Shown in pieces: positions 2,811 to 63,911 of a stretch of DNA of 64,000 nt. Each line of letters starts with the position of its first letter. Position 1 is the stretch's first letter. A program made the position numbers and the translations under genes. The notes beneath the pieces are model-generated. The model ran no database searches. It worked only from the letters and a program-made list of their open reading frames with translations, and had not been told where the DNA came from. Source of the DNA: Scilla litardierei (lineage: Eukaryota; Streptophyta; Magnoliopsida; Asparagales; Asparagaceae); assembly GCA_030789695.1 (NCBI GenBank), contig CM061135.1, positions 109,004,301-109,068,300 of the forward strand, in the 5' to 3' direction.

Positions 2811-3074
2811 TGTAACGACTGCTTTTCATGTATCTGGATTTATATAATATAATATATGTTTTGGTAGATTTTCTCCTCTTGTGTGGTTTTCGTCTCCGTA
2901 GCTTTCGTTTTCGATCGATTCGTCGTATTTTCTCGTTCCTTCCTTAGGATTGTCGATTTCGAAGTGTGTCACTCGTGATGGACTTCATAACGGTCGTATC
3001 TTACTATTAGATCAAGCCTAGGAGTCTTAGGAATCGATCCCGGGGCCCCGCGCTCCGTATCGGAACTTTTTGTG

Positions 3075-3510
3075 CTCATTAGCCGGTAGAAGAAGGGGCA
3101 CCGACCGACTAGATGACGATCTAGTCGGTCGGCAATCCTTCTTGGACCGACTAGTTGGCTTTCTAAAATTATTCAGGAGTTACTGTTTATCGTTAGTCGG
3201 TCTAAGAACGTTGGTTGACCGACTAGGTTGCAAACTAGTCGGTCGGCAATGCTTCTTTAACCGACTAACACATCATCTTAATTTTGGTTGAGTTACTGTT
3301 TACTCTTAGTCGGTCTAAGAACGTTCATCGACCGACTAGATGCTAAACTAGTCGGTCAGTATTTGTTCATGGACCGACTAACTCTAAAATCCTATTTTCG
3401 TTCAGGAGTTACTGTTTGCACTTAGTCGGTCTGCGTTGATCGACCGACCGACTAGTTGCCAAACTAGTCGGTCAGTGGTTGCTCTTTGACCGACTAACCA
3501 GTGTTGAAAC
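3075..3510 (+). repeat. Array of four ~76-nt hairpin units built from TTAGTCGGTC / GACCGACTAA half-sites
   Basis: Each unit has four half-sites in alternating orientation: TTAGTCGGT, ACCGACTAG, CTAGTCGGT, ACCGACTAA (the first unit starts TTAGCCGGT). The central pair has an 8-base loop. Spacers between outer and inner half-sites are often complementary too, for example AAGAAGG with CCTTCTT in unit 1. Units are separated by a conserved GTTACTGTTTA stretch. The array lies just upstream of the TATA-like element at about 3540. Confidence 0.85.
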
Positions 3511-3972
3511 CCTAATTTCTGGGCAGCCTTCAGCCCATCCTATTTAAACCCAACCCAAACGATTTCATCTTCCCCAACACGACCCAAAACCCTAAAATCT
3601 TCCCCCTTGAGCCCTCATCTTCCTCCAAGCTTCATTTCTTCATTCCAAGCCCTAAATCCATCATCCAAACCATCCATCCACTCCATCTACCTCTCATCTT
3701 CCCCAAAATCTCACCAAAATCCATCAAATCCCCCAAAACCCTAGTTTCCCCAAACTTCTCCAATCTTTTCCAGATCTGATTCTAGGGTTCCCCGGAGTGT
3801 TTCTTCCGCCTCCTCTCGGTAAGAAATCGATCTACCGTTGTTTTCATAACCTATTTATATTTTTATGAAACCCTAATATAATTTCATGTTGTTTGATGAT
3901 TGTTCCCCCAAAACAGCGATTTCCCCGTAGATTGGCATCCGTGTGACGAAGTAGTCACCATCCCCGGTGCTA

Positions 3973-4111
3973 GGCAAGTGAAACTTGCCACTTAGGGTTT
4001 AGGCCATGTTTTAGGCCATTTGCTTGTTGTAGGCGTAAAAGAGGCTAGGCGACGAAATGATACTCGCCTAGGCGCAAATTGGGGAACTAGCTTGACAACG
4101 AAGCTAGTTCC
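3973..4111 (+). repeat. Leader hairpin cluster in the Ty3 LTR
   Basis: Three perfect stems follow one another. GGCAAGT pairs with ACTTGCC (3973-3989, loop GAA). CTAGGCGA pairs with TCGCCTAG (4045-4071, loop CGAAATGATAC). GGAACTAGCTT pairs with AAGCTAGTTCC (4083-4111, loop GACAACG). They lie downstream of the TATA-like box and so would be in the 5' leader RNA. Confidence 0.7.
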
Positions 4112-5265
4112 GACATTTAGCATGTTGCACAACTTCCATGTCATGTTTACTTTCTATTAACGGTACGCGAGTTAAATGTCATGTCATTGCATTCTTTAAA
4201 TGCTTCTATGATTGCGTAGCTTTGCTACAAATGCTTGTGTTCCTGGCTCGTGTTTCAGAAGCGGGCCATGTGTTGGTTGATAGCCAATGCCCGAATTGCG
4301 TGTTTCCGGCTAGGTGCACCCCTACGCCAAATGTTTAAGAATGCGAGCTCATGTGCGGGGCAACCCCAGGCTCACTAGCTAAGCTCATTGTGCGGGGACC
4401 CTGGCTCCATTACGTGTGGGTATTGGGGGTAAGAGTTAAGCGACCAATCAACTGGGAGTCTGCCCGATCAGCAACTGCAGTGGTAAGGCGTAAACTCTTG
4501 GGTTTGGGGTAGTTGTTAAGCGGCCAATCAGCGGATGTGAAACCATTCAGCTGTAAGGCGTAAACATCTACAAAACGACGTGAATAGTGAATTGATTGAT
4601 ATTGATAGTAGCGTGGCTACTCTTGTCTTGTCTTGTCTTGTCCCGATGATTATTCTATTGTACAATTACCTTGCCATGTCTTGATTGTGCACTCATGTTA
4701 TAACTGCCATGTCATGCATACTAAACTGCTAGGTTGCTAGTTGTCTTACTTTCAGTTTTCTTGCCCAAGTCTTTTAGACTTGCTGACATGTGCCCCTTTA
4801 CTCTTTTGGGTGACACATGTTAGATCCTGAGCACGAGTACCTTGTTGAGGACGAGGTGTTTACCGACGCCGAGCCCGAGCTTGTGTTTGACGGGGAGTAC
4901 GTGGACACTGGGGACCAGTCCTAGTGTCTTCGTTGTGTTTTACTTTTGTTAGACAGTTGTTTTGTTATCGGTGCGTAGCACCTATACTTTGTTGTTGTTG
5001 CTTTTGTTGGCCTTGTTCTGGGCCTTTAGACTCTTCTCTTTAGCCTGGTGGCTTTTCTGGATGTTGGACTTATTTTCTTGTTGGACAATTTATGAGATGT
5101 GAGATTTTATTTCAGTCTCTCCTTGTGTTATTATTGTTATTCCGTTGTGGTTACAGGGACCTGCTTATGTATTTTTGACGCTTATCGGGTTTGGGGCTTC
5201 ACAGCTCCACTCTCGTGCGGACCTTTTCACGTCTCGCCTCCATTTTAGGGAAGCGAGTCGTGACA

Positions 5266-7209: not shown

Positions 7210-8870
7210 TGTTGTACCCCTCATTAGATGGCCATTTTCTCGTATATCATGTTCATTTGGTCTCTAATATGTGTATTTTACAATATCATTTAATTTTAGA
7301 TCTTATCACTTAATTATGCATAAAATATCATTGTGTGGATCTAATTTTGGCCCATTTTATTTTTCAGGTGAAGATTGTAATTTTCCGAGTCTAACGGCTA
7401 TTTTCTAGATTTTTCGGACGTCGGGGAAATTTTCTGGAAATTTTGCAGGCCAAGAAATCATTTTTTGGAAAAGAAAATTAAAAAACAGAAAAGAAAATCA
7501 TGGCATGCGGGTCGGCCCAACTGTCTGGCTCACATTCAAAAAAAAAGAAATAATAAAAAAATAATAAACTAGCCTATAAGCCGGCCTAATTGGCGACCCG
7601 CAAGCCAGCTACTTCAACACTCCACCAGAGCATGCATGCGCCATTTTGTGGGTCGGATAGCACATCACCTGACCCGACCTGGTTTTGCCGTTCTTATAGA
7701 GCAACAACGGGTCGGGTGATCAGCGCTGGCCAGACCCAACTCGCAATGCCTTTACTTAAGTTTTAGGCAGTGTTTTGGCGGGTTTTGGGTTGTAGAATCC
7801 GACCCAACAGCACAGTGTGGACTCAATACGGGTTTTAAAGCATTTTAGGGGGTTTGAGCCTCTTTTCTTCCCCATTCTATCTCCCCTTTCCAGATTTCTT
7901 AGGGGTTTGGAACCATTGGAAGGCCGGAGAGCTTGGTGGTGGTGGTGGTGGTGGAAAGAAGGGCAAAGGCGACTCCTTTGAGTGCTCAAAGGCTATCTCT
8001 TCCACATTCTCTTGTTCATTTGTATTTAGTTTAAGTGTTTTGTATTGGAATGATTATTTTGTATAAAAATATCATCGTGTTCATGATGCTTGGCTAAATG
8101 GTGTGGGTTGGGTTGTGTTGTAGTTAGGGTTTATGGTTATTGTGCATCCATTCATCTCAAACAACACTTAATGATTAAATCATTAGATTGATGGGTTGTT
8201 TATATTTGTATTGCATATGCATTACTCGTGAGGGGTTTAATGAAGATGGTGTGCCACGAGGCACTACCTATGTGTATTTGCATTACCCGTGAGGGGTCCC
8301 AAAAGGATGATATGCCGCGAGGCACTATCCACATGTATGTGCACAACCTGTTGAGGGATCCAAGAATGATATGTCGCGAGGCATTATCTACATGCATAAA
8401 ACTCATCAAGGGATCCTAGATGTGGATGGTGTGCCGCGAGGCTCACCTAGAACAATTAGAATATAAAACCCACGAATCTAACGATTATCTATATTGCCAA
8501 TTTTATCGTGCTTGATTGTTAAACCTTTCGATCCACATACCTTGGCATGGATGTGGGATTGAGTTATCCGAGGGAGTTTGGATAGCATAGTAAACCATAA
8601 CACTATCGATAGCACAACACACATGCACTCTTCCTTGCTATTTGCTTATCCATTCTCCAACCCTAGTTATTATAGGTTAGGTTGATAATATCACCATCTA
8701 TCTTCCCATCGATTTCCTGCTACTGAGGTGGTCGTATCATCACCACTACTAATCTTTAGTCAATCAAAGCTATGAGTTGTAGAACAACTTGTTCCCATGA
8801 TTCGACCCTGTACTCACCAGGACTTTACTGCATGACAGCCTCCTATACTTGGGAATATCGCAATATTTTG
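7210..8870 (+). repeat. Athila/Tat-like LTR relic (boundaries approximate)
   Basis: Starts TGTTGTACCCC and closes with a pyrimidine-rich GATTCGACCCTG... segment of the kind seen at the 3' end of Athila/Tat LTRs. Inside are paired GGGTCGG / CCGACCC-type inverted half-sites (about 7505-7740) and, further 3', a four-copy ~60-bp tandem repeat with hairpins (8219-8450). No gag or PBS follows, so it may be a solo or truncated LTR. I infer the family from layout, not from a coding domain. Confidence 0.4.
8219..8450 (+). repeat. Four-copy ~60-bp tandem repeat, each copy with a covarying hairpin
   Basis: Copies begin near 8219, 8280, 8341 and 8399. Each contains a stem with loop (A/G)CGA: 8248-8268, 8309-8329, 8368-8388 and 8428-8447. 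The outer stem changes between copies (GGT/ACC, GATA/TATC, GATA/TATC, GGTG/CACC) but stays paired. The inner GCC/GGC-like stem and a single unpaired base on the 3' side are kept. Each copy also begins with a smaller ACYC-GTGAG-GGGT-like element. Confidence 0.7.
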
Positions 8871-10940: not shown

Positions 10941-11775
10941 TCATGTAGATGGTAAGCAATACTAGAAGGGGTTGAATAGTGTTGCTCAAAAACAATATCT
11001 TAATAAAAATTCTTCTAGTAAATCTTAAGTATCTTGCAGAAGTTACTCTACTAGGTACTTAATCAACTACTCAATATTAGTTGCAATATAATGAAATAAA
11101 GCACCTGAAATTAAACAACTCAGCAAGCAATGAGAGAAATGAGAGACAACACCAATTGCAAACACAGAGAGATTTATACGGATTCATCCACCACCGGGCT
11201 ACCTCTAGTACCAAGCCAACCAACTTGGATTTTCACTACCCAACTCTCAAGTGAGAGTAAACTTGCCTCAAATTAGAGGGCTTTCTTACAACCTTGTCTC
11301 TTCTCTGATAAGAGGGCTTTTACAACAGATAACCAATAACCTCACCACATGAGAATCTCGTGCAATTGGATTTTCAAACACCACGTACAAATAACTTACC
11401 AACCAACCACCCTTCTATGTATACTAACTCTTTGCAGCGATTACAATGATCCTATAGCCAATTGATTTGAAGCTCGACTGAATAAGTGGCTATAAGAAAA
11501 AATTTGATCTTAAGAAAAGGACTAAAGAATAAAATCAAATCACTTGAGAATCGAATACCTCTTGATCCAATCTTAAAAGATAGAGATGAAGCTCTATGGA
11601 TTGAGATCAAGATAGGCCAAAAATCGTTGAAAAGATTAGAGTAAAAACGAAAATGAAATCTGCCAAAACTGAAAGCGCAATGAGAGAGATGAGAGCTTTG
11701 AAAACTTCAGAAAATAGCTTTTAAAATAACTTGTGATCTATTTATACATATTCTCCACCATGTTGCAGGTATACA
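10935..11775 (-). repeat. 5' LTR of the Copia relic (far end approximate)
   Basis: The end next to gag reads, on the reverse strand, ...ACATGATCCTA, matching the LTR end of element 3. The plus-strand text CTAGAAGGGGTTGAATAGTGTTG-like is the usual SIRE-type LTR end. Hairpins occur at 11211-11228 (CCAAG/CTTGG), 11243-11258 (ACTCTC/GAGAGT) and 11298-11314 (CTCTT/AAGAG). The distal boundary near 11.77 kb is a guess. Confidence 0.45.
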
Positions 11776-14374: not shown

Positions 14375-14773
14375 TGATCGGGCCCCGGATATACACCCGG
14401 AGAACGATTGTAGTTTTACCGCAAGCGCACGGCCGAGTGGCGAGCGGGTATCGAACACGAGGAGGTGGTGTTGGCTCTAATCTATCCTAGGTTGGTTTGA
14501 CTACGAATGTTTTATTGGTGGATGTGGTTATGGAATGATGTAATGGAAATGGTGGTGGATGTCGGTGTCAGTGATAAAGAAGTCGGTCAAATATCGATTC
14601 AAATACAATATAATAAAAGTGTCTAGGGCTAGGGAATCCCCACTACGGGTCGGCATTCATCCTTGTGAATCGTGAGTCTCAATATTACTAGACTTGCGTT
14701 GAGGTGAACTAGTCGTAACTGAATAGAGAACCAAGCTCACGCTCTCGCGCTATTGCCAGTCTATAGCAACCTA

Positions 14774-15075
14774 GATTAGGGCCCAATCTCTTACAAACCC
14801 TAACCTAAGCCACTAGCATGAAGATCGACATCATCGTCCAATCGCCCCTCGAGCCCACTCTCGTGCAAGCTCGAGTTACGATCAAGGTTGGGATAGTTCG
14901 TATTCGTCCAATCTCTTGCAAACGAATATGGGTATAGATTTATAATAAAAATCCTAGCTTTGGTCCAATCTCTTGCAAACCAAGTCTAGAGAATCCCGAT
15001 TATAAACATAAATCTAATATCTAGGCCTTCCCATCGATTAGAATCCAATCTCTTGCAAACCCCAATTGATGGAAA
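14774..15075 (-). repeat. Five leader hairpins with an invariant 16-base loop and different stems
   Basis: Given on the plus strand, the loop is (T/C)CCAATCTCTTGCAAA with small changes. Stems: TTAGGG/CCCTAA (14776-14803); CTCGAG/CTCGAG (14848-14875, loop CCCACTCTCGTGCAAG); TATTCG/CGAATA (14901-14928); TTTGG/CCAAG (14959-14984); CCATCGATT/AATTGATGG (15031-15072, with four unpaired bases each side). In the other LTR the last stem is a perfect CCATCGATT/AATCGATGG. The set is repeated at about 27808-28107. Confidence 0.8.
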
Positions 15076-15537
15076 TCCCTAGCTATCCGTAATAAATCAA
15101 TCACAACCTAACCCCTTTAGAAATTCTAGCAACATTTCAATTCATTCATCACAAATATGAAATTAGATCCATAGGGTTCATCCTCATGCCCTAGAACATC
15201 AAATCTACTCAATCATAGCAATAACGATAGAGAAATCGATAAAAAACATTGCTTGCATATATAAAGATATCAAAACAAGGATTAAAGCAATAAGAACAAA
15301 ATACTTAGCTTTGATGAAGATCTTCAATCCAAAATACAAGCTTTTAGATCCAAGAGGGGGCCTAGGGCATGGCCTAACCTCTAAAATAATCACTAATAAA
15401 ACATATGGGAACCTCCTCTAATGGTGGCTACAAAACCCTTATATAGTCCCCCAAAACCCTAGAAAATAACCCTAGAAAAACCCCCAAAATAGTGCCCAAA
15501 AACAGCCCAAACCGCAACTTAAATCTGGGCCCAGGCC

Positions 15538-16150
15538 GCACTCGGCCGAGTGGAACATGTGACCCGGCCGAGTGGAAATTCCAGCACTGCAGCGTCAACT
15601 TACAGAAATTCTCCAGATTTCATCTGACCTCCAATTGGTGCGTTCTTGGTGGCGTTGGAACCGTCATGAAGTCTACTATCTATAAAAAATATGAGAAAAA
15701 TAATTTTATTGCTGGAATGATAGTATATTTCAAAAGAGTGGACGGTTGTCTGAAAATCTGGGCACTGCACGTCCTCGGCGTCACTCGGCCGAGTGGGATT
15801 CTTCACTCGGTCGAGTGACAGACCCTGTAGAAAAACAGTAACTTCGAGGTCCTCAGGGGTCTGTCTCCGGGGGTGGCTCGGCCGAGTAGCTTTCATCATT
15901 CGGCCGAGTGGTAATGTGTACTCGGCCGAGTCGGAGCCATCAAAAGCCTGTACATTTCCAGTAAGTCGGCCATTTTTTATGGGGGATTTTCCATGCCACT
16001 CGGGCGATGCGATATTCATACTCGGCCGAATGGGATATCGTCCCTCGGCCGAGTGCACGCCCAATTCCTTCTGTGGTGCATGTCCGGTCTGGTCGGCCGA
16101 GCGGGCTTTCTTGCTCGGCCGAGTGTGTGCTTTACGCGGCTGAGTGGCAT
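15538..16150 (-). repeat. CTCGGCCGAG palindrome array in the U3 of Y (left LTR)
   Basis: About eleven copies of ACTCGGCCGAGT or close variants, mostly in pairs 8-15 bases apart: near 15540/15561, 15783/15807, 15877/15900/15918, 16020/16043 and 16094/16116/16137. The array starts about 90 bp upstream (element strand) of the TATATAA box. Some copies have matched changes (for example ACTCGGTCGAGT) that keep partial symmetry. The same array is in the other LTR. Confidence 0.85.
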
Positions 16151-16451
16151 GCTGTAAATGCCCAATCTTCTCCGTTTCTCCTCCTCGTCGCTCCTATGAA
16201 GTTCTTCCCTTCTCCACTCATCCTCTAGCGCTGATAACTCCTTAATAAGGCCATGAGCGATGCTCCGTCATGCGTGCAAGTCCTTTAAGCTTATTTTTGC
16301 TCCCAATTGCTCCATATTTCCTGAAATCCGACAAAAACAAGAAATAGTGAAAAGTAACGCAATATCGTCGAATACTCGTGAAAATCGCAATATGAGCAAT
16401 CGAAATGGCGTGAAAACATGCAGAAAAAAGGTATAAAATATGGAGCGATCA

Positions 16452-19045: not shown

Positions 19046-21008
19046 TGTTGGATCTGGATCGTAGCCTAGAGGGGGGTGAATAGGCTAATAAAAATATTCG
19101 TGCAACCCACAAACAATCCCACGCAGTTATAAGCACAGACAGGGCAATAAATTAGCAATCACAGAATACGCACAGATATACCGTGGTTCGGTCGTCCCCA
19201 CGACCTACTCCAGCCCCCGAAAGCAACTACTAGATAGATATGTAATCAAGTACAGCTACAATGAGTCAAGATCCCAAATCTACTCTCACCTAGCTCGTAT
19301 GCACACCACGTGCTCTACACTATCAATCTAGTCAGATGCTCTCCCTCCGTGACGACTCCCAAGTCGTCAGGTCCCCAAAAAGTAACACAAAAGGTAATGT
19401 TTCCCCTACGAAGAACTAACACAAATACTACACAATATAATAAACAAGAGAGTTTAGAATGCTCAGATTGTGTAGCGGTGTTGTCTTCGTCAATCAGTAC
19501 GGGTCAGATCTCGTCTGATGTAGATGTAGATGTCTCCTCGACACCAGCAACTCAGGTTGTGGCGATGTCTCTTGCAACTTGCGGCTTTGCCCCTTCTCTG
19601 AAATTTATAGCAAATGGATATTGGGCACTTGGGTTGAGGCAATAATATTTCCTGGGAATTAGTGTAACTTCCTCTCTGCCCTGGTAATCACAACACAAAG
19701 AATTCGGCTGCGGCTTTCTCCTCTAATTTTTTGTGCGGCAGCCTTCAATTAGATTTTCGTTCTCAATTGATTGTCTGGCTTGCAAACTTGAATTCTTCCT
19801 TGATTTCCTGCACACAACCTCTAATAAACTTTGGTTTAATAAAGAGTTAAAGCACTTACCTTTTGCCCATTGGAAATCAAAACTTTCGGATGCCTGTGTG
19901 CATTCAACAAAAAATATTGCGCCGCCTCTTTTTATTGAGATGCTGTTCTTGTGGCCGCATGAATTTTGCTCCTCGAAAATTTGTGGAGACTTGAGACTCA
20001 CGGTCCAATATTGCGGCTGGAAGCAATCTTGTACTCTTTGGTGCCTGCAGACAATTACAAGGGAAGTTAATGAATAGCAAGCAATTAATAAAAAAACTTA
20101 GTTTACTCGAAGTTGCTCCTCCCTCTAGTCAAATATTTCGGCTGGCCTTGTTTTGTGCTTTTGCTTGGTTGACTCCTCTCTCGTCCCCTCTATTGTTCAT
20201 TCAGGATGAATTCGGTAGCATCATCAAAAGGGATACCCCATAATAATTTCGTGCGCCCCCCTCAGGATGAATTTGATTGATCAAAGACGCGGCTTGCTGA
20301 GGATCTCTTGTGTGTGTATGGAAAAAATACTGCGCCTCTCTCTCTAGATCAAGTTCTCCCCTTTATTTTTTGTGCTCCTGCCAAAAAAGATAATGCACAT
20401 GCTCTTAGAAACAATTGGCCAGGAGATTTTTTAGAGGAGGCCTTTTTCCTGGGAACTTGCAGAAGGGGGGTAGAGGGCGGCTCCTCTAAAATTTCGGCTC
20501 TCCCCTTTTTTTTTAATTTGTTGGCTGCCGCACTCAATAAAATTCTGAGAGCTGCTAGGGTTTTTTGTTGGTGGGCCCTTTTTTAATTGATTTGGTCTGT
20601 GTTGGTTTTTTTTGGCCTGTGTTATTTTTTTTGGCCTTTTTTAATTCTGCCGCACTCAATAGGATTTTTTGGCCTGTGTTATATTAAGCCTAATCCAATG
20701 TCATGTTGATGCACTTATTTTGCATCACAATGACCAAGCATATATATGTACTTATATAAGTATGTAATAAAAACTTGGTACTCCCCTGTTCTCCTTTGCG
20801 CATTGACCAAGTCCTCTTTGCTAAGCGCATAGCTCTTTTTGACATAGTCCAATTGCTATGTGTACAGTAATTCCTCCATCTCTTTGAGTTAGCCATCATT
20901 TGGATATTTACGTCCGTGCCACTCCTGCAAATACTTAACACACACATCAGATCGTTCACAACTGTTTGTCATCATCAAACCATAATTCCTAGATCGTTGT
21001 TTCCAACA
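19046..21008 (-). repeat. 3' LTR of element Z
   Basis: Plus-strand ends TGTTGGATC...TTCCAACA; 1963 bp. Leader hairpins: GGTCGT/ACGACC with CCCC loop (19190-19205) and GACGACT/AGTCGTC with CCCA loop (19351-19368). A TATATAA-like stretch lies at about 20735-20760. The many short ORFs in it are duplicated in the other LTR and are not genes. Confidence 0.9.
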
Positions 21009-24234: not shown

Positions 24235-26201
24235 TGTTGGATCTGGATCGTAGCCTAGAGGGGGGTGAATAGGCTAATAAAAATATTCATGCAACCCACG
24301 AACAATCCCACGCAGTTATAGGCACAGACAGGGCAATAAAATAGCAATCACAGAATACACACAGATTTACCCTGGTTCGGTCGTCCCCACGACCTACTCC
24401 AGCCCCCGAAAGCAACTACTAGATAGATATGTAATCAAGTACAGCTACAATGAGTCAAGATCCCAAATCTACTCTCACCTAGCTCGTACGCACACCACGT
24501 GCTCTACACTATCAATCTAGTCAGATGCTCTCCCTCCGTGACGACTCACAAGTCGTCAGGTCCCCAAAAAGTAACACAAAAGGTAATGTTTCCCCTACGA
24601 AGAACTAACACAAATATGACACAATATAATAAACAAGAGAGTTTAGAATGCTCAGATTGTGTAGCGGTGTTGTCTTCGTCAATCAGTACGGGTCAGATCT
24701 CGTCTGACGTAGATGTAGATGTCTCCTCGACACCAGCAACTCAGGTTGTGGCGATGTCTCTTGCAACTTGCGGCTTTGCCCCTTCTCTGAAATTTACAGC
24801 AAATGGATATTGGGCACTTGGGTTGAGGCAATAATATTTCCTGGGAATTAGCGTAACTTCCTCTCTGCTCTTGGTAATCACAACACAAAGAATTCGGCTG
24901 CGGCTTTCTCCTCTAATTTTTTGTGCGGCAGCCTTCAATTAGATTTTCGTTCTCAATTGATTGTCTGGCTTGCAAACTTGAATTCTTCCTTGATTTCCTG
25001 CACACAACCTCTAATAAACTTTGGTTTAATAAAGAGTTAAAGCACTTACCTTTTGCCCATTGGAAATCAAAACTTTCGGATGCCTGTGTGCATTCAACAA
25101 AAAATATTGCGCCGCCTCTTTTTATTGAGATGTTGTTCTTGTGGCCGCATGAATTTTGCTCCTCGAAAATTTGTTGAGACTTGAGACTCACGGTCCAATA
25201 TTGCGGCTGGAAGCAATCTTGTACTCTTTGGTGCCTGCAGACAATTACAAGGGAAGTTAATGAATAGCAGGCAATTAATAAAAAAAACTTAGTTTACTCG
25301 AAGTTGCTCCTCCCTCTAGTCAAATATTTCGGCTGGCCTTGTTTTGTGCTTTTGCTTTGGTTGACTCCTCTCTCGTCCCCTCTATTGTTCATTCAGGATG
25401 AATTCGGTAGCATCATCAAAAGGGATACCCCATAATAATTTCGTGCGCCCCCCTCAGGATGAATTTGATTGATCAAAGACGCGGCTTGCTGAGGATCTCT
25501 TGTGTGTGTATGGAAAAAATACTGCGCCTCTCTCTCTAGATCAAGTTCTCCCCTTTATTTTTTGTGCTCCTGCCAACAAAGATAATGCACATGCTCTTAG
25601 AAACAATTGGCCAAGAGATTTTTTAGAGGAGGCCTTTTTCCTGGGAACTTGAAGAAGGGGGGTAGAGGGCGGCTCCTCTAAAATTTCGGCTCTCCCCCTT
25701 TTTTTTAATTTGTTGGCTGCTGCACTCAATAAAATTCTGAGAGCTGCTAGGGTTTTTTGTTGGTTGGCCCTTTTTTAATTGATTTGGTCTGTGTTGGTTT
25801 TTTTTATGGCCTGTGTTGTTTTTTTGGCCTTTTTTAATTCTGCCGCACTCAATAGGATTTTTTGGCCTGTGTTATATTAAGCCTAATCCAATGTCATGTT
25901 GATGCACTTATTTTGCAGCACAATGACCAAGCATATATATGTACTTATATAAGTATGTAATAAAAACTTGGTACTCCCCTGTTCTCCTTTGCGCATTGAC
26001 CAAGTCCTCTTTGCTAAGCGCATAGCTCTTTTTGACATAGTCCAATTTCTATGTGTACAGTAATTCCTCCATCTCTTTGAGTTAGCCATCATTTGGATAT
26101 TTACGTCCGTGCCACTCCTGCAAATACTTAACACACACATCAGATCGTTCACAACTGTTTGTCATCATCAAACCATAAGTCCTAGATCGTTGTTTCCAAC
26201 A
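24235..26201 (-). repeat. 5' LTR of element Z
   Basis: 1967 bp, TGTTGGATC...TTCCAACA, nearly identical to 19046-21008. The GACGACT/AGTCGTC hairpin is kept with a changed loop (CACA, about 24540-24557). Confidence 0.9.
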
Positions 26202-27408: not shown

Positions 27409-29483
27409 TGGTCGGCCCCGGATACACACCCGGAGAACGATTGTAGTTTTACCGCAAGTGCACGGTCGAGTGGCGAGCGGGTATCGAACACGAGGAGGTG
27501 GTGTTGGCTCCAATCTATCCTAGATTGGGTTGACTACGAATGTTTTATTGGTGGATGTGGTTATGGAATGATGTAATGGAAATGGTGGTGGATGTCGGTG
27601 TCGGTGATAAAGAAGTCGGTCAAATATCGATTCAAATACAATATAATAAAAGTGTCTAGGGCTAGGGAATCCCCACTACGGGTCGGCATTCATCCTTGTG
27701 AATCGTGAGTCTCAATATTACTAGACTTGCGTTGAGGTGAACTAGTCGTAACTGAATAGAGAACCAAGCTCACGCTCTCGCGCTATTGCCGGTCTATAGC
27801 AACCTAGATTAGGGCCCAATCTCTTGCAAACCCTAACCTAAGCCACTAGCATGGAGATCGACATCATCGTCCAATCGCCCCTCGAGCCCACTCTCATGCA
27901 AACTCGAGTTACGATCAAGGTTGGGATAGTTCGTATTCGTCCAATCTCTTGCAAACGAATATGGGTATAGATTTATAATAAAAATCCTAGCTTTGGTCCA
28001 ATCTCTTGCAAACCACGTCTAGAGAATCCCGATTATAAACCTAAATCTAATATCTAGGCCTTCCCATCGATTAGAATCCAATCTCTTGCAAACCCCAATC
28101 GATGGAAATCCCTAGCTATCCGTAATAAATCAATCACAACCTAACCCCTTTAGAAATTCTAGCAACATTTCAATTCATTCATCACAAATATGAAATTAGA
28201 TCCATAGGGTTCATCCCCATGCCCTAGAACATTAAATCTACTCAATCATAGCAATAATGATAGAGAAATCGATAAAAAACATTGCTTGCATATATAAAGA
28301 TATCAAAACAAGGATTCAAGCAATAAGAACAAAATACTTAGCTTTGATGAAGATCTTCAATCCAAACTACAAGCTTTTAGATCCAAGAGGGGGCCTAGGG
28401 CATGGCCTAACCTCTAAAATAATCACTAATAAAACATATGGGAACCTCCTCTAATGGTGGCTACAAAACCCTTATATAGTCCCCCAAAACCCTAGCAAAT
28501 AACCCTAGAAAACCCCCAAAATCGTGCCCAAAAATAGCCCAAACCGCAACTTAAATCTGGGCCCAGGCCGCACTCGGCCGAGTGTAACATGTGACCCGGC
28601 CGAGTGGAAATTCCAGCACTGCGGCGTCAACTTGCAGAAATTCTCCAGATTTCATCCGACCTCCGATTGGTGTGTTCTTGGTGGTGTTGGAACAATCATG
28701 AAGTCTACTATCCATAACAAATATGAGAAAAATACTTTGATTGCTGGAATGATAGCAGATTTCAAAAGAGTAAATGGTTGTCTGAAAATCTGGGCGCTGC
28801 ACATCCTCGGCGTCACTCGGCCGAGTGGGATTCTTCACTCGGTCGAGTGACAGACCCTGTAGAAAAGCAGTAACTTCGAGGTCCTCAGGGGTCTGTCTCT
28901 GGGGGTGGCTCGACCGAGTAGCTTTCATCATTCGACCGAGTGGTAATGTGTACTCGGCCGAGTCGGAGCCGCCAAAAGCCTGTACATTTCCAGTAAGTCA
29001 GCCATTTTTTATGAAGGATTTTCCATGCCACTCGGGCGATGCGATCTTCATACTCGGTCGAATGGGATATCGTCCCTCGGCCGAGTGCACGCCCAATTCC
29101 TTCTGTGGTGCGTGTCCGGTCTGGTCGGCCGAGCGGGCTTTCTTGCTCAGCCGAGTGTGAGCTTCACTCGGCCGAGTGGCATGCTGTAAATGCCCAATCT
29201 TCTCCGTTTCTCCTCCTCGTCGCTCCTATGAAGTTCTTTCCTTCTCCACTCATCCTCTAACGCTGATAACTCCTTAATAAGGCCATGAGCGATGCTCCGT
29301 CACGCGTGCAAGTCCTTTAAGCTCATTTTTGCTCCCAATTGCTCCATATTTCCTGAAATCCGACAAAAACAAGAAATAATGAAAAGTAACACAATATCGT
29401 CGAATACTTGTGAAAATCGCAATAGGAGCAATCGAAATGGCGTGAAAACATGCAGAAAAAAGGTGTAAAATATGGAGGGACCA
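27409..29483 (-). repeat. 5' LTR of element Y
   Basis: 2075 bp. Plus-strand ends TGGTCGG...GGACCA: compared with the other LTR both ends have changed, yet remain inverted to each other. It carries second copies of the leader hairpins (about 27808-28107) and the CTCGGCCGAG array (about 28570-29185). Confidence 0.9.
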
Positions 29484-37225: not shown

Positions 37226-37233
37226 TATTTATA
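37226..37233 (-). promoter_or_regulatory. TATA box of element 1 LTR
   Basis: Reverse strand CTATAAATAC, between the U3 hairpin array and the leader hairpins. Confidence 0.7.
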
Positions 37234-37287
37234 GGAACCCAAAAACACAAGTTAGGTCAATCATCAACGGATAGAAATCTGTGAGAA

Positions 37288-37826
37288 TTAGTCGGTCAAA
37301 GAACGATCACTGACCGACTAGTTCATCAACTAGTCGGTCAACCAAACAACGTGGACCGACTAAGAGTAGATCTGAGAAGAGATAGAATTTCAGACCTAGA
37401 AATCTAGTCGGTCCAAGAACACTTTCTGACCGACTAGTTTCACAACTAGTCGGTCAGTCAATGAACGTAGACCGACTAAGAGGTAAAATAACTTAGTCTG
37501 AATGCAAAGTGACTTAGTCGGTCCAAGAACAAAAGTTGACCGACTAGATTGTCAACTAGTCGGTCATCAAACGTTCTTAGACCGACTAACGGTAAACAGC
37601 AGCTCAGGAGAAATTTAGAGTGAACAGTAAGTCACAACTAGTCGGTCAAAGAAGCATCACTGACCGACTAGTTCACAAACTAGTTGGTCGGTGAGTCAAC
37701 GTAGACCGACTAACTGTAAACAGTAAAGTCCAAGAAATTAAGGAATCAAACTAGTCGGTCCAAGAACAGTTGCCGACCGACTAGATCACCATCTAGTCGG
37801 TCAGTACTTGTTCTTGTACCAACTAA
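37288..37826 (-). repeat. Five ~76-nt ACCGACTAG hairpin units in the U3 of element 1 (3' LTR)
   Basis: Units start at 37288, 37404, 37514, 37637 and about 37750 (spacing 110-123 bp). Each has the alternating half-sites (T/C)TAGTCGGTC, GACCGACTAG, CTAGTCGGTC, GACCGACTAA. Spacers pair in unit 3 (AAGAAC with GTTCTT) and unit 5 (CAAGAACA with TGTTCTTG). The reverse complement of unit 3 with its flank matches the Ty3 LTR array at about 3175-3270. Second copy at about 47981-48519. Confidence 0.9.
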
Positions 37827-38227
37827 CATGCACAACAAAGTCCGAATCGAAGCGCGACGCTTCGAGGAAGTTAGAATGAACTTGTGCAAGGATCCTAGAG
37901 CTACGAAATGAGCGTAATGAAGATAGAAACGTAAGATATACTCAAGGCTTAACATTCTATCAATCGAAACTAAAAGACTATAAATAAAACCTTAATAAAC
38001 GGTCTTTGAGAGCTTCGATTGAATCTTCATAACTTCCAAAGCGTTGCAGGAGCTTCAACGAAGCTTTAGGCTTGAATACGAGCTTTTGGAAGTGTTGAGA
38101 TGTCGCTTTGAATATTCTCGTGAAATTGGCGACGATCTCCAATACTGCGCTCACAAATTGTTAGTTCATGAATTATTTATGTTTGCTCATCATCCAAAAC
38201 CAAATCCGGGGAGTCCAATATTCAACA

Positions 38228-41099: not shown

Positions 41100-41495
41100 G
41101 GAGAGAAGACCGACTAATTAAGAAATTAGTCGAACGAAAAATGAGTATAAGTCGGTCTGGAATCAAAAAGACGTAACTGCCCTAACACACTTAGTCGGTC
41201 ACAGTTCAAGCACTGACCGACTAGATTACGATCTAGTCGGTCGGTCAATGAGCTTGAACCGACTAAGTCGAAACAGAGGCACAGAGTGATTTTTAGGGCT
41301 AGATTTAGTCGGTCGCAGTATACTTACTGACCGACTAGTTTTCAATCTAGTCGGTCGGAAAGTGTACTATGACCGACTAACGAAAGAAAATGATAGGAGA
41401 TGGATATTTGCTTGATCTAGTCGGTCTGAGTTCATTTGCTGACCGACTAGATGAGCATCTAGTCGGTTGACAAGAGAACTGAAACCGACTAGAAG
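41100..41495 (-). repeat. ACCGACTAG hairpin array in the pol-env spacer of element 1
   Basis: Three full units at about 41190-41267, 41307-41380 and 41417-41492, plus a partial one at 41107-41158. Half-sites are as in the LTR, but the paired inner spacers differ: TTCAAGC with GCTTGAA, AGTATACTT with AAGTGTACT (one G-T type mismatch), AGTTC with GAACT. The array lies between the pol stop and the envelope-like ATG. Confidence 0.9.
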
Positions 41496-47178: not shown

Positions 47179-48920
47179 TGTAATGCCCTACCAGCTACTG
47201 CACAAGTACTAGAGGGGGGGTGAATAGTACTTTAAAATAATAAGGCGTATAATTCCAATATTAAATTGCACACAACTACCAAATCAATTTGCGGAAGCTT
47301 AAATTGAATGACAACAAAGAAATTAACAATGCTAACAAACGAAGTTAATGGGTTCGGATCCACCCAAGTCTCCCCGACTTGTTCCCGGTGATCCTACGTC
47401 CCAACCACCCGGATCCCCTCCGGATACTTGAGTTAGAAACCCTAACTCAAGATTTCCACTATGAATATCTTGTGAAAAACCTTCACAAGATCAAATCATA
47501 CATGCAATGGCAAAGTGAATCACACAACCCGGGATCACAAACTTCTCTCACAACCGAGAGAGCCAATAAGCAAAACAAAAGAGTTTAAATGAAATAAATA
47601 CTCTTACCACAAAATCCTATACCTTGAGTTTTTCTTACCCAATAGGTGGAATGAAGGATTTGAGGAAGATGAAGTCACCAAGCCCTAGCACCAAGGAAAT
47701 GAGCAGCAATGGGTGCCTAGGGAAGAGTTGGAGACTTGGATCAAGCAATAGCTTGAAAAGCTCACCAAGAACAAGCTTCTCTCTAGATCTAGAAATGAGA
47801 GAGAATGGGTTTCTTGTGAGGAAGAGAGCTTTAGATTTGAGGGAGAATAGCTATCTCTTTTGATCTCAATGAATCTCTGAATGGAAGCTCTTACCTAGAT
47901 AGAAATGACCTAGGTTCGTATTTATAGGAACCCAAAAACACAAGTTAGGTCAATCATCAACGGATAGAAATCTGTGAGAATTAGTCGGTCAAAGAACAAT
48001 CACTGACCGACTAGTTCATCAACTAGTCGGTCAGCCAAACAACGTGGACCGACTAAGAGTAGATCTGAGAAGAGATAGAATTTCAGACCTAGAAATCTAG
48101 TCGGTCCAAGAACACTTTCTGACCGACTAGTTTCACAACTAGTCGGTCAGTCAATGAACGTAGACCGACTAAGAGGCAAAATAACTTAGTCTGAATGCAA
48201 AGTGACTTAGTCGGTCCAAGAACAAAAGTTGACCGACTAGATTGTCAACTAGTCGGTCATCAAACGTTCTTAGACCGACTAACGGTAAACAGTAGCTCAG
48301 GAGAAATTTAGAGTGAACAGTAAGTCACAACTAGTCGGTCAAAGAAGCATCACTGACCGACTAGTTCACAAACTAGTCGGTCGGTGAGTCAACGTAGACC
48401 GACTAACTGTAAACAGTAAAGTCCAAGAAATTAAGGAATCAAACTAGTCGGTCCAAGAACAGTTGCCGACCGACTAGATCACCATCTAGTCGGGCAGTAC
48501 TTGTTCTTGTACCAACTAACATGCACAACAAAGTCCGAATCGAAGCGCGACGCTTCGAGGAAGTTAGAATGAACTTGTGCAAGGATCCTAGAGCTACGAA
48601 ATGAGCGTAATGAAGATAGAAACGTAAGATATACTCAAGGCTTAACATTCTATCAATCGAAACTAAAAGACTATAAATAAAACCTTAATAAACGGTCTTT
48701 GAGAGCTTCGATTGAATCTTCATAACTTCCAAAGCGTTGCAGGAGCTTCAACGAAGCTTTAGGCTTGAATACGAGCTTTTGGAAGTGTTGAGATGTCGCT
48801 TTGAATATTCTCGTGAAATTGGCGACGATCTCCAATACTGCGCTCACAAATTGTTAGTTCATGAATTATTTATGTTTGCTCATCATCCAAAACCAAATCC
48901 GGGGAGTCCAATATTCAACA
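47179..48920 (-). repeat. 5' LTR of element 1
   Basis: 1742 bp, same ends as 36486-38227. It includes the second copies of the leader hairpins (about 47365-47561) and U3 hairpin units (about 47981-48519). Differences are single bases, for example in the loop-proximal stem of hairpin 2 and in unit 5. Confidence 0.95.
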
Positions 48921-48925
48921 ATCTC

Positions 48926-49962
48926 TTCACCAAGAGATTCACCAAAAGTAAAAGAAAGAGTATGAAACAATATCACCTATAGACTTAATAATTGATGGAA
49001 TTATTGCGCAATGAAGGTGATCGAATCTCCATGGTTCTGGATGGAACTTGTAGTAGAACGAACTTGAAGATTAGACTTTCTATGGAGGAAAAATTTCTGC
49101 ACAGGTTCCTCTAAGAAAATCTGAAAATTACTAACTTTCTAGAGAGAGAAAGTGAACTTAAGAAAATAGAAAGAAAGTGAATTTTCGTGTGTTTTAGGCA
49201 GGGGTCTGGGGTTCTATTTATAGTCTAAGAAGGTAGTTTTTGAACGTTGGACAACTGCCTAAATTTTCAAAAAATTCTGGAAAATTTTTTCTATTAGTCG
49301 ACTAATATGGGTGCCTGGTCGACTAATTATTACTGCTGACTAGGATTCTGGATGTTGAGGTGTCTTTAAGAAAATAATTTCCACAAACTAAAAGAAACTT
49401 CTTTAAACAGATATAAACTATTAGAAACTAGCCGTTTATGGCAGTTCTAACTTCCAGAAATAAAATATATTATTTAAATGATAAATCATTTAAATAACTA
49501 TTTTGAAAATAGACTGGTAGACTAACAGAGTTTGTTGGCGGACTAAAAATATGAAATTTTAGGAAATTATAGAAAAATGATCCTAGAGACTTAAAAATGG
49601 GTCTGATGAAATTTTAGGACAGAAATATTTAAATATTAAAATTAGTCAATTTGTATCAAGGGTTGGTCGACTAATAGGATTTTTGTCTTGATTGATTTTG
49701 AGGATGAGTCCTAAACGACTTAGAGAGATTATCATCAAGGCTTTTACATTCTAAGCAACCGCAAGAGACAAGATAACATCTCATTTACAAGAGACAAAAT
49801 ATCATCGATAAGCTTCGTCTTGTAGTGGATGCTTCTTGCAATATGTAGACTTGATGAATGTCTTAGTTGATTTGTGCTATAACATCTGCATAGATAGAGT
49901 TAGTATAATGATAATATGTTTGTATCATCAAAACCACATGGAGGAGTTGTGAGTTTCCAACA
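48926..49962 (-). repeat. Element 2 3' LTR, proximal part (U3), with GTCGACTAA palindrome pairs
   Basis: Continues the LTR after the second TSD of element 1 and ends TTCCAACA at 49962. A TATAAATA box (reverse strand) lies at 49215-49222. Upstream of it are paired TTAGTCGACTAA-type palindromes at 49293-49327, 49511-49548 and 49641-49678; the first pair is the best kept. Total LTR length without element 1 is 1334 bp. Confidence 0.85.
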
Positions 49963-53739: not shown

Positions 53740-54805
53740 TCTTGGAACTTGGTATATTCCATCTTCTATTCCATAAGGTTTTGATATGACAATCAATATA
53801 TTTTCTGTTACTAACTCTATCTATGCAGATGTGCAGACTTACAGACTATTCTATTCACATTATGCATATGATCAGTTTATAAGGACTCTCTGAGGATACT
53901 AGCTTCACTACTCAAATTACGTTTGGACAACGTATCTTCAGAATGATGTAATTTAACTTTTTAGATAGCTTCAGGGCCTTTGCTATAACATATCATATAT
54001 CCCTAAGCTTCACATTACATTATCTTCCAACTCATTTGATCCCAAGTCAAAAATTTCCAATTTACATATTTGGTCGACTACGAATTTTCGTAGCCTGCTA
54101 AACCGTTGTTTTGACAGTTCGAGTCCGAAATTTTCTGGACAGTTTCTAGCCATTTGTAACTTCCTTCAGAACCGTTCAGAACAGTTTCTGAACACTATAA
54201 AAGGAGGGGTACATCCTCTCTTTTTCATTCACATCTTTTCCTCATCTTTGTTTTCATTTTGTGTAAATCAAGGCTTTAATTCTCTTGGAATAAGTTGTTT
54301 GTGTTCTCATTTGTAAGAAGAAATTCTGATCTCTTTCTTCATTTGAGAACTAAAGAAATTCAAGGGTGTTTTGCAAATTCTATATTTAGAAACATTGAAG
54401 TTCTCTTTTTAAAACACCATCCTTTGAATTCATTCTTGATATTCATACCAAGGCTATAAGTGTTTTATATTTCATTATTTCTTTAACAAGGTTTGAATCT
54501 CTAGTTGTAGAGATTGTACAATGTTTGGGACTCGGGGAGTGTCGTCATTTTTGTAAGTTCGTGCTTGCGAGGCAAGTGATTATAGTGGATTAAAAATCTC
54601 TTCAGGAAGTAGAGGGCTGGAGTAGGATCAAAAGGATCCAAACCCGGATACATCTTTGTGTTTACGATTGGTTTATTTTCTATACTTGTCATTTAATTTC
54701 TGTTCCATCCTTGCAAATTTTACTAACGTTTTATTTGCAACAAGTTTTTATAATACACTATTCAACCCTCCTTCTAGTGTATTTGTGTATACATGTGATC
54801 CTACA
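53740..54805 (+). repeat. 5' LTR of element 3
   Basis: 1066 bp. U3 palindrome pair GTCGACTACGAA/TTCGTAGCCTGC (54071-54104); TATAAAA at about 54196-54202. Leader hairpins: AATCTCT/AGAGATT loop AGTTGT (54496-54515), CTTGC/GCAAG loop GAG (54564-54576), GGATC/GATCC loop AAAAG (54625-54639). Confidence 0.9.
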
Positions 54806-61265: not shown

Positions 61266-62340
61266 TCTCGTTTCTGTTCCTCCTCCGCCAAGGCTCGTTA
61301 TCTCTCCTTCGAAGCAACCCGCTTTCATCCCGAGCGGTTCCTAGATTTTGCCGAACTCTACAGCTTCAACATCTGTGAAATCCTCGAAGCCGTCGGCCTT
61401 CACCAAGTTTGGTGTCTAAACAACAAGGTCACATACTATCCGTCCCTGGTCAAGGAGTTCTATGCCAACCTTGAAACCTCAGTCTACCACGGTCAGAAGC
61501 ACTTCACAACCATGGTTCGTGGTGTCTCCTTCACGGTGTCTGGCAAGACTATTGCCAAGGTTATCGCCCAGCCCCCCAATTTTTATGGCACTCTCTCATT
61601 TCCTATGAATGATACTACAATCCTTGCGAAATTGGCCCCAAAATTTTTCCCTCACATGTCAGCCACTCGACTTCATCCCGAGGCCCGATTTCTCCATAAA
61701 ATCATAACCCACAACCTAATGCCGAAGTCTGGATCCCTAAACTACGTGAGTTCATCCCCTGAGCATTTCCTCTATGCCATATTGGGTGGTTTTCTGATCC
61801 AATGGGGAAATCTTCTTTACTTCACCCTTGTGAAAAGCGTCACCTCCCATTTTTATCTGCCGTGTTTGATCACCCTGATTCTCTGCGCATTTTTTCGTAC
61901 CCACTGACGGAGAATACAGTATTCATAGTGATATTCACTTTGATGAAATGACCGCTCACAACATGCACTTGTCGGATCCTCCCTCTTCCTCTTCAAAGCG
62001 AAAGCCGATGATGATGATGATGAGTCTGAAGGGACTCCTACTCAGACTCCACAGCCTCAACCGCAAGTATCTCCAACTCCAGGCTCTTCTCGTTCCAAGT
62101 CAAGCAAGAAGCTCCTTGATTCGAAAGATGGCATTTTTCCCTCATGCGAAACAAACGCCGTGCTTCTCTGTTGCCTTACCGGGACTGTCTCTGCAGGATT
62201 TGCTGGAATTCAAATGCAGTTTAGTTCTTACGATGCTACCTCAAGCATCATTCAGAGGTTCTCGACCAAATTCAAATAAACCAGTCTCAGCTTGTCTCTG
62301 CCTTAGAAGCCCAGAACGTCTTTCCCACCCATCGCACTAG
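61266..62340 (+). pseudogene. Element 3 envelope-like ORF, frameshifted
   Basis: Fragments in shifting frames show RFLDFAELYSF, VKEFYANL, VRGVSFTVSGK (61512 onward), IITHNLMPKSGSLNYVSSS and, past 61907, a Pro/Ser/Gln-rich tail with a basic RSKSSKK. Same family as the ORFs at 39164-40822 and 50560-51652. Confidence 0.65.
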
Positions 62341-62834
62341 ACCCCGCCCTTCCTCCCCTGGACCTTCCTCATATCATCCTTTCTCCCCATGATCATTATG
62401 CCTTTTGAATGTCCCTTTGACCGTCCCTACTTCAGATTCCGTTGGTTTGTTCCATGTTTCAGTTTGGGTTGCTACTACTAGATGTTTTTCTCTGTTTTTT
62501 TCGTTGGTCTCAAATCTGCAGTTTGGGTGTTGATCGCTACAGCTTTGTTTTATCGGTTGTTTTGGATGTAATGGTTGTTTAAGTTGGGTATTTTGTATTT
62601 CATTCTGCTCTCTGTAACTCCAATTATGTTTAATTATATGTTCTCTATGTATTACTTAGTTATATTTTTACTTCCATGCAATTTCTCTTCATTTCGTTAT
62701 TAGCCGACTACAAAAATATGTAGCCTGCTAATTTTGTTTTTCCACTTTTTGTGAATGACAAAGGGGGAGAACTTAAGGCATATATTCAGGGGGAGTAATA
62801 AACATACTATATCTTTTAATTGTTTGTCATCATC
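62341..62834 (+). other. 3' UTR of element 3
   Basis: T-rich, no ORF. The palindrome pair AGCCGACTACAAA/TGTAGCCTGCTAA lies at 62699-62733, and a GGGGGAG stretch at 62764-62770 precedes the true PPT. Confidence 0.55.
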
Positions 62835-62848
62835 AAAAAGGGGGAGAA
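62835..62848 (+). promoter_or_regulatory. Polypurine tract of element 3
   Basis: AAAAAGGGGGAGAA immediately before the LTR start TGTCGGAAC. Confidence 0.85.
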
Positions 62849-63911
62849 TGTCGGAACTTGGTATATTCCATCTTCTATTCCATAAGGTTTTGATATGACA
62901 AGCAATATATTTTCTGTTACTAACTCTATCTATGCAGATGTACAGACCTACAGACTATTCTATACACATTATGCATATGATCAGTTTAAAAGGACTCTCT
63001 GAGGATACTGGCTTCACTACTCAAATTACGTTTGGACAACGTATCTTCGAAATGATGTAATTTAACTTTTTAGATTGCTTCAGGCCCTTGGCTATAACAT
63101 ATCATATATCCCTAAGCTTCAAATTACATTATCTTCCAACTCATTTGATCCCAAGTCAAAAATTTCAATTTACATATTTGGTTGACTACGAATTTTCGTA
63201 TCCTGCTAAACAGTTGTTTTGACCATTTGAGTCCGAAATTTTCTGGACAGTTTCTAGTCGTTTGTAACTTCCTTCAGAACCGTTCAGAACTGTTTCTGAA
63301 CACTATAAAAGGAGGGGCACCACCTCTCTTTTCATTCACATCTTTTCCTCTTCTTTGTTTTTATTTTGTGGAAATCAAGGCTTTAATTCTCTTGGGAAAA
63401 GTTGTTTGCGTTCTCATTTGTAAGAAGAAATTCTGATCTCTTTCTTCATTTGAAAACTACAGAACTTCAAGGGTGTTTCGCAAATTCCACATTGCGAAAC
63501 ATTGAAGTTCTCTTTTTAAAACAACATCATTTGAATTCATTCTTGATATTCATACCAAGGATATATGTGTTTTCTATTTCATTATTTCTTCAACAAGGTT
63601 TGAATCTCAAGTTGTAGAGATTGTACAAAGTTTGGGACACGGGGAGTGTCGCTATTTTTGTAAGTTCGTGCTTGCTGGGCAAGTGATTATAGTGGATTGA
63701 AAATCTCTACAGGAAGTAGAGGACTAGAGTAGGATCAAAAGGATCCGAACAAGGATACATCTTGTATTTGCGATTGGTTTATTTTCTATACTTGTTATTT
63801 AATTTTTGTTCCATCTTTGCAAATTTTAGTAACGTTTTATTTGCAATAATTTTTTATAATACAATATTCAACCACACTTCTAGTGTATTTGTGTATACAG
63901 GCGATCCTATA
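62849..63911 (+). repeat. 3' LTR of element 3
   Basis: 1063 bp, TGTCGGAAC...GATCCTATA. The CTTGC/GCAAG hairpin is kept with a changed loop (TGG, near 63670-63682), as are the TATAAAA box and the U3 palindrome pair (63180-63211, one half decayed). Confidence 0.92.

Follow-up and report, generated by a model that had tools for sequence, protein, structure and literature searches.

The window analysed here is a 64,000-nucleotide stretch of the Scilla litardierei genome (C6:109004301-109068300, in a 3.68-Gb genome). It is a nest of plant long terminal repeat (LTR) retrotransposons, with older relics also present. This report concerns two kinds of repeated sequence in these LTRs: palindromes or inverted half-sites in the U3 region upstream of the TATA-like box, and hairpins between that box and the primer-binding site (PBS), in the presumed leader. 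The elements chiefly involved are Tekay (Ty3), X (Athila lineage) and SIRE-1 (Copia), with the features listed below. Element and lineage names are working labels, except where a domain hit is given.

2811..5265, plus strand: 3' LTR of a Tekay/Del-like Ty3 element, read directly
3063..3498, plus: Tekay U3 array of four ~113-bp units, from the inverted-repeat test and unit comparison
3541..3548, plus: putative TATA-like box of the Tekay LTR, from sequence
4421..4579, plus: two hairpins of the Tekay leader that keep the same internal-loop frame and differ in their outer and apical stems
14375..16451, minus: 3' LTR of X (Athila lineage); pol was not found inside X
15539..16146, minus: U3 array of the X 3' LTR, CACTCGGCCGAGTG-type palindromes, with the TATA at ~15447 downstream
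14756..15083, minus: five tandem hairpins of the X 3' LTR, with TTTGCAAGAGATTGG-type loops
27409..29483, minus: X 5' LTR, followed by its PBS
28571..29178, minus: U3 palindrome array of the X 5' LTR, with the TATA at ~28480 downstream
27794..28115, minus: five tandem leader hairpins of the X 5' LTR
36486-48920, minus: SIRE-1, whole element, LTRs 99.5% identical
47179..48920, minus: SIRE-1 5' LTR
47965..48520, minus: U3 array of the SIRE-1 5' LTR, five units of the Tekay type, TATA at ~47928
47348..47561, minus: leader hairpins of the SIRE-1 5' LTR, with GGTTG/GGTTT and GGGGA loops
47204..47232, minus: polyC-loop hairpin of the SIRE-1 5' LTR, upstream of the PBS
36486..38227, minus: SIRE-1 3' LTR
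37272..37827, minus: U3 array of the SIRE-1 3' LTR
41175..41493, minus: third SIRE-1 array, between pol and the env-like gene, spacers diverged

A Tekay pol fragment at 86-2760, upstream of the LTR, contains reverse transcriptase (RT), RNase H, and integrase zinc-binding and SH3 domains. X is interrupted by an insertion of Y, a gag-only Copia element. The sequence read as the PBS after the X 5' LTR is GGCGTCGTTGCCGGGGA, which may be of the Athila type. SIRE-1 codes for gag, pol and an env-like open reading frame (ORF) with a Transposase_32 domain, and it has four features of a Sirevirus: the polypurine tract (PPT) octamer, the PBS, CGG-CCG boxes before the TATA and the env-like gene, and the polyC signal. 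The octamer (AGGGGGAG, 38230-38237, minus strand) starts 10 bp before the 3' LTR, which runs from 38227, and is followed by AA where AT is usual. The PBS (TATCAGAGC) is separated from the 5' LTR by TTTGG where ATTGG is usual.

Arrays upstream of the TATA-like box

One unit of ~113 bp, spacers included, is common to the Ty3/Tekay and Copia/SIRE-1 LTRs. Each Tekay unit contains four half-sites, TTAGTCGGTC, GACCGACTAG, CTAGTCGGTC and GACCGACTAA. When the half-sites were removed, the four remaining segments of the two elements still matched in the same orientation, each at a level reached by 0/300 shuffles. Unit 1 of Tekay compared in this way with unit 1 of SIRE-1 scored 21.0, against a null with a mean of -10.2, a standard deviation of 4.4 and a 99.9th percentile of 4.0; the other three Tekay units match inner SIRE-1 units best. 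The LTR sequences flanking the array are unrelated (50/200 and 78/200 shuffles). The SIRE-1 array before the env-like gene is weakly like that of Tekay, its spacers being matched by 0 or 1 of 300 shuffles, and the 22 bases that precede it are not like Tekay's (198/300). The box shared by the two elements, GACCGACTAG-N8-CTAGTCGGTC, has 17 matches in the window with at most 3 mismatches, where 0.01 are expected. The initial annotation had described the motifs as specific to each family, which is wrong for Tekay and SIRE-1.

The array is very abundant outside the window. Genome-wide there are 238,470 exact copies of its 28-bp core, against 0 for a control. One fetched locus (L082) is 96.5% identical to the Tekay LTR of the window over ~600 bp, array included, and another (L083) is related but diverged. 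In L087, taken from between two places that bear the array and lie 7.3 kb apart, a Ty3 gag adjoins a Tekay LTR end of 93.9% identity. L084 and L085 match mainly within the array and may represent further families, and L086 is SIRE-1-like. The sharing of an array unit between Ty3 and Copia elements is apparently new; exchange of an LTR module between superfamilies was not found in the open-licence literature searched, which included work on template switching in Triticeae (PMC1950507).

To compare the U3 regions with chance, perfect inverted repeats (arms of at least 7, spacers of at most 40) were counted in up to 600 bp before the TATA and in 200 dinucleotide shuffles. Tekay has 8 where 1.1 are expected (0/200 shuffles reach this count), X has 6 and 5 against 1.1 (0/200 and 1/200), and SIRE-1 has 8 and 8 against 1.2 and 1.3 (0/200 each). 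These ratios of 4.6 to 7.0 are well above those of control segments outside LTRs. SIRE-2, with 7 against 2.4 (0/200), is slightly above them at 2.9. The excess is weak in SIRE-3 (15/200 shuffles for the 5' LTR, 69/200 for the 3' LTR), and inverted repeats are not above chance in the U3 of an 8-kb LTR relic (43/200). Y was rejected as a carrier of such an array, as 74/200 and 71/200 shuffles reach its count. Palindromes before the TATA had been proposed for all three SIRE elements, Tekay, X and Y; the proposal holds for Tekay, X, SIRE-1 and SIRE-2, weakly for SIRE-3 and not for Y.

Other genome copies behave similarly. With a threshold of at most 5/100 shuffles, U3 excess was observed in 14/14 SIRE-1-type LTRs (5/19 lacked a TATA match and were excluded) and 18/19 Athila-type LTRs (1/20 excluded), as well as in 1/3, 1/1 and 1/1 LTRs of three other Copia groups. 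The nearest inverted repeat ends 51-113 bp before the TATA.

The boxes differ among the remaining families. The X box, CACTCGGCCGAGTG, has 23 window matches with at most 3 mismatches (0.67 expected); the X LTRs hold 22, including one that falls beyond the U3 array, and 1 is elsewhere. SIRE-2 has TAGTCGAC-type pairs, and the pairs of SIRE-3 are weak. RCCGAC is the core of the dehydration-responsive element/C-repeat (DRE/CRT) of stress responses. By sequence, ACCGAC is present in the Tekay/SIRE-1 boxes and GCCGAC in the SIRE-3 boxes between pol and env, and the core is missing from the Athila box CACTCGGCCGAGTG and the SIRE-2 pairs TAGTCGAC. By eye, box-like inverted pairs were also seen both downstream of the env-like ORF and in the stretch separating it from pol, in SIRE-2 (50540, 51980 and 52340, minus strand) and SIRE-3 (60290 and 62700, plus strand). 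In one Athila subgroup (L012, L013, L014, L017, L019, L020) the TATA lies inside a GGGGTATTTAACCCC-type near-palindrome.

Mismatches within the dyads were examined for a pairing preference in RNA. The dyads of X (Athila lineage) have 33 G-U and 130 A-C mismatches in the sense strand, the opposite of what pairing in sense RNA would give. SIRE-1 has 19 G-U and 9 A-C, which is not significant. Because the arrays lie upstream of the presumed start and lack a preference for sense-RNA pairing, we take them to be DNA binding arrays; they behave more like DNA sites than like RNA structures.

Part of this arrangement has a precedent. Bousios 2010 (PMC2829016) describes palindromic boxes before the TATA of Sireviruses, all but one with a CGG-CCG core, together with further boxes ahead of ENV, more than one PPT and a polyC "integrase signal". 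The U3 part of SIRE-1 to SIRE-3, including the array at 41175-41493, is therefore known in kind, and the remark in the initial annotation that no description was known to it does not hold for Sireviruses. The arrays here resemble those Sirevirus repeated-motif (RM) boxes in being multicopy, palindromic and CG-rich, in lying before the TATA and, in SIRE-1, in having extra copies before the env-like gene. The same paper describes the boxes as Sirevirus-specific and absent from the other Copia elements studied, and reports that a common binding site of a single factor was not found. In contrast, the arrays described here extend to LTRs of Tekay (Ty3) and of the Athila lineage, with one unit common to two superfamilies.

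Hairpins in the leaders

The X leader contains five hairpins with TTTGCAAGAGATTGG-type loops on unlike stems. Five tandem hairpins are present in 22/22 Athila-lineage LTRs, comprising 20 genome loci and the two LTRs of X. Because a two-loop pattern was used to pick the loci, a minimum of two loops is guaranteed by the selection itself; an extra weak match in L028 was dropped. Genome-wide the pattern occurs 29,525 + 29,258 = 58,783 times, and a control 0 times. Each hairpin has a variable outer stem, a two-base UG bulge, a three-pair inner stem and a GAGA tetraloop. Among 110 inner stems, 83 are CAA-GAGA-TTG, 21 are CAC-GAGA-GTG, 2 are the intermediate CAT-GAGA-GTG and 4 are others.

The stems vary in a compensated manner. 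Hairpins folded with their own arms have a mean energy of -10.1 kcal/mol (n=110), compared with -3.6 when arms are swapped between hairpins of one LTR (n=440). Exchange of arms between loci for the same hairpin weakens H2 (-9.6 to -6.3), H3 (-5.9 to -4.0) and H4 (-13.0 to -9.8). The consensus fold of the five hairpins has 90 pairs, 18 of them with two-sided changes, and 1936/1974 cells are paired. Against column shuffles, six windows over the array gave z-scores of -6.1, -5.3, -1.3, -5.7, -5.9 and -3.4. The alignment folds far better in sense (-89.7) than in antisense (-31.6), and in 16/22 single sequences the sense strand is favoured beyond composition. In a fixed register, not chosen by folding, exceptions in the outer stems of 70 distinct hairpins include 26 G-U and 11 A-C (p 0.02), besides 31 other mismatches; a larger G-U excess in folded structures was not relied on because folding biases it. 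Covariation strongly confirms that the Athila leader hairpins are conserved, transcription of the region being assumed from the TATA-like box. The chain looks like a real RNA signal, perhaps for packaging.

Internal regions of Athila-lineage elements were examined for coding sequence. ATHILA ORF and Ty3 pol domains were detected in 1/4, L031, which lies between two X-type LTRs (PF03078, E 5.1e-11; by tblastn Ty3 RT 36%, RNase H 46% and integrase 28%). RT was not found in X, L029 or L030 by the query that detects it in L031. LTRs of these three (both of X, L014 and L011) keep all five hairpins. Retention of the array where the element's own pol was not detected, as well as in L031 where pol is present, favours a role in cis in replication or packaging over leader translation. 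A single recognisable loop on different stems also fits a protein that reads the loop.

No description of the Athila array was found in the open-licence literature searched. Rfam gave 0 matches at the gathering score, and the patterns tried gave 0 relatives in viral contigs and in genome contigs. Loops of the GNRA or G-rich type resemble retroviral loops bound by Gag. Like the packaging and dimerisation hairpins of retroviruses and Ty1, the array is a 5' leader structure before or around the PBS (Ty1 TIPIRT domain, PMC5454406); unlike them, it has five near-identical units with a UG bulge and a GAGA loop, and the likeness is one of structure. BARE1/BARE2 offers a parallel in that a gag-deficient element keeps its packaging signals and is packaged in trans, although a word search of its main text found no stem-loop or hairpin there (PMC3735527).

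Raw counts of inverted repeats were less informative. Leaders are in excess in Tekay (0/200 shuffles), SIRE-1 (1/200 for both LTRs), SIRE-2 (4/200) and the SIRE-3 5' LTR (1/200), and not above shuffles in X (16/200 and 29/200), Y (26/200 and 38/200), the SIRE-3 3' LTR (25/200) and the 8-kb LTR (54/200). Such counts were rejected as proof of leader hairpins, since 4/8 control segments are also in excess. An unguided test for the same loop on different stems was applied to 19 leaders and 10 controls at three word lengths, without correction for multiple testing. At most 10/200 shuffles reached the loop sharing of X and 2/3 other Athila LTRs, that of SIRE-1, L035 and L060 in one or two of the three word lengths, and that of three other Copia leaders in one; 0/10 controls reached this level. 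Tekay, Y, SIRE-3 and the 8-kb LTR did not.

Alignment of families shows that the first ~300 nt after the TATA are little structured, and conserved hairpins begin ~300-380 nt in; SIRE-1 hairpins nearer the TATA can form, but do not stand out in the family. In 21 SIRE-1 family sequences (mean identity 0.72), five successive leader windows gave z-scores of -4.5, -5.0, -2.2, -5.1 and -2.0. Three of the hairpins, whose loops are GTTG, GGTTG and GGTTT, have 104/105, 195/202 and 168/168 cells paired, and two-sided changes affect 0, 2 and 3 of their pairs, respectively. Four other Copia families (30 LTRs) all have windows with z of -4.0 or below, and their counts of two-sided changes are mostly not above shuffles; the clearest covarying hairpins among them belong to the Y family. 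A small fifth group (L049, L057 and SIRE-3) was left out of folding. Covariation in genome copies, a check of the kind suggested for the leader hairpins, is decisive for the Athila lineage, good for SIRE-1 and less certain in the other four families. In Tekay, two copies of an internal-loop frame with changing stems are present in the window and 2/5 fetched loci (L088, L092); L089 has one copy, and L090 and L091 have none.

The polyC motif of Copia LTRs also lies in a hairpin. There are 14 distinct stems among 32 LTRs (30 loci, SIRE-1 and Y). Since the inner portion of the 3' arm was dictated by the search pattern, pairs 4-8 alone are informative. Pairing is kept in 14/14 stems each for pair 4 (AT, CG or GT) and pair 5 (CG, TA or GC), in 13/14 for pair 6 (AT or GC), and in 10/14 each for pairs 7 and 8. 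On average 4.36 of 5 outer pairs are kept with a stem's own arms, against 2.49 on exchange. Genome-wide there are 22,854 matches to the pattern (control 0). Because the stem covaries, we read the motif as a hairpin loop adjoining the PBS. This C-rich motif near the LTR end is like the Sirevirus "integrase signal", and differs from it as described in that its flanks form a stem covarying between families (PMC2829016). It may have an integrase role as well. GGGGGAG purine tracts were seen upstream of the SIRE-1 and Y 3' LTRs (38230-38530 and 21005-21310, minus strand). From their sequence, these could pair with the C-rich loop near the PBS and bring the ends of the genomic RNA into contact.

Proposed roles and alternatives

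The two-part layout does recur in both superfamilies, as the initial annotation had claimed, and the evidence does not point to the one shared system it envisaged. Rather, we favour two unrelated cis-acting systems flanking the TATA, DNA binding arrays upstream and leader RNA hairpin arrays downstream, with a probability of about 0.5. Covariation of the structures, their placement around TATA-like boxes and the shared unit are observed; we infer the binding partners, functions and route of exchange as follows. CG-containing palindromes or inverted half-sites in U3 would be enhancer-type DNA binding arrays, of which the Sirevirus RM boxes are an example. One unit would have moved as a block between the Ty3/Tekay and Copia/Sirevirus lineages, most simply by recombination or template switching. 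In the leader, the recognised part of each hairpin would be kept while stems change by compensation. The five Athila hairpins would most likely be repeated docking sites for the element's Gag, in packaging and dimerisation, and the Copia polyC hairpin adjoining the PBS would serve the start of reverse transcription. More tentatively, and at less than even odds, the promoter array may be a cassette that moves between superfamilies and the Athila array a five-site Gag-docking RNA that lets pol-less relatives be packaged in trans.

Several results weigh against this interpretation. Inverted repeats are in excess in 4/8 control segments outside LTRs (observed/expected 0.68 to 2.56 over all eight): SIRE-1 gag-pol (2.56x, 0/200), SIRE-3 internal (1.66x, 1/200), SIRE-2 RT (1.90x, 5/200) and 30600-36100 (1.47x, 8/200). 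The G-U/A-C contrast in U3 may partly stem from decay of CG sites and the picking of matches. Arm exchange between loci costs little for H1 (-9.0 to -8.8) and H5 (-11.5 to -11.0), and of 60 shuffles, 5, 1, 17, 0, 2 and 8 attain the number of two-sided changes seen in the respective Athila windows, so this number is not exceptional in every window. The SIRE-1 sense strand is not favoured beyond base composition (0/21). Loop sharing was rejected as a general rule, being clear in the Athila lineage only. RT was sought in these elements with a single Tekay query and a few Pfam scans, and the loci all lie within the first ~13 Mb of one contig, which is not a random sample.

Tekay and SIRE-1 could also have come by the array independently, by way of a third mobile element or through convergence on a single factor, with no direct exchange. 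The abundance of the core (238,470 occurrences) is compatible with this, and a maize Sirevirus palindrome is the commonest motif in structured regions of Helitrons, so other vehicles may exist (PMC10760457). Convergence leaves the spacer matches and the match of unit 1 to unit 1 unexplained, a third carrier is still conceivable, and separate acquisition is a serious but doubtful alternative. Both parts of the layout might instead be substrates for silencing, processed to small RNAs and passively maintained. Clusters of maize Sirevirus palindromes do have excess small RNAs (Bousios 2016, as described in PMC10760457). However, maize Ty3 elements are generally without an obvious peak of such structure (PMC10760457), and a constant loop on stems that vary in a compensated manner calls for selection on structure, which silencing would not supply. 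We consider this quite improbable.

Control of translation by the leader hairpins, through shunting, internal entry or bypass of upstream ORFs, would suit their position in a long leader before gag, after ~300 nt of little structure. It is nonetheless unlikely, as X, L029 and L030, in which pol was not found, keep the whole array in their LTRs, and near-identical loops repeated on changing stems look like protein docking sites. The notion that hairpins are ordinary by-products of tandem duplication and composition fits the repeats of the 8-kb LTR and the poor specificity of raw counts. For the Athila and SIRE-1 families it runs against the effect of swapped arms, the two-sided changes and the z-scores from column shuffles, and it is hardly credible, though it may still apply to the 8-kb LTR.

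If the promoter array moves between superfamilies as a cassette, unrelated elements would answer to the same factor. An array unit common to LTRs of Ty3 and Copia would demonstrate that promoter modules pass from one superfamily to another, and unrelated elements could then be activated or silenced together. Packaging in trans would help to explain tens of thousands of copies of pol-less Athila relatives, and the covarying five-hairpin array offers a precise target for tests of Gag binding and trans-packaging.

Other features of the window

The remaining features are as follows.

7690..8490, plus: candidate leader in the 8-kb LTR relic, where 61-bp repeats could fold into small hairpins, not clearly in excess of chance
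10955..10985, minus: polyC-loop hairpin of an 11-kb Copia relic, one stem pair mismatched
19046..21008, minus: Y 3' LTR
24235..26201, minus: Y 5' LTR, its leader carrying hairpins near 24560 and 24394, and one with a polyC loop near 24276-24250
36189..36485, minus: downstream piece of the SIRE-2 3' LTR, with a polyC-loop hairpin at ~36213-36238
48921..49962, minus: upstream piece of the SIRE-2 3' LTR, with TAGTCGAC-type inverted pairs and a TATA at ~49224
53744-63911, plus: SIRE-3, whole element
53744..54805, plus: SIRE-3 5' LTR (start set by the repeat limit), with weak U3 pairs and leader hairpins
54740-54795, plus: polyC-type hairpin of the SIRE-3 5' LTR
62849..63911, plus: SIRE-3 3' LTR

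Hairpins had been proposed in both relics. The one in the Copia relic is present on the minus strand apart from its mismatched pair. The repeats of the 8-kb Athila-like LTR can fold; their GNRA hairpins are reached by 6/300 shuffles for stems of at least 4 and by 36/300 for stems of at least 5, and were not accepted.

The SIRE-2 3' LTR is split in two by the insertion of SIRE-1. The target was a hairpin-forming stretch, and the 5-base duplication gagat is present at 36481-36485 and 48921-48925. A C+G-rich repeat with CCCGGCCCGA units has two copies, 85% identical, outside LTRs (31497-31980 and 55109-55649); it is probably a repeat of its own, mobile or satellite-like in kind. At 13671-13780, an (AT)n tract of ~53 units could fold on itself.

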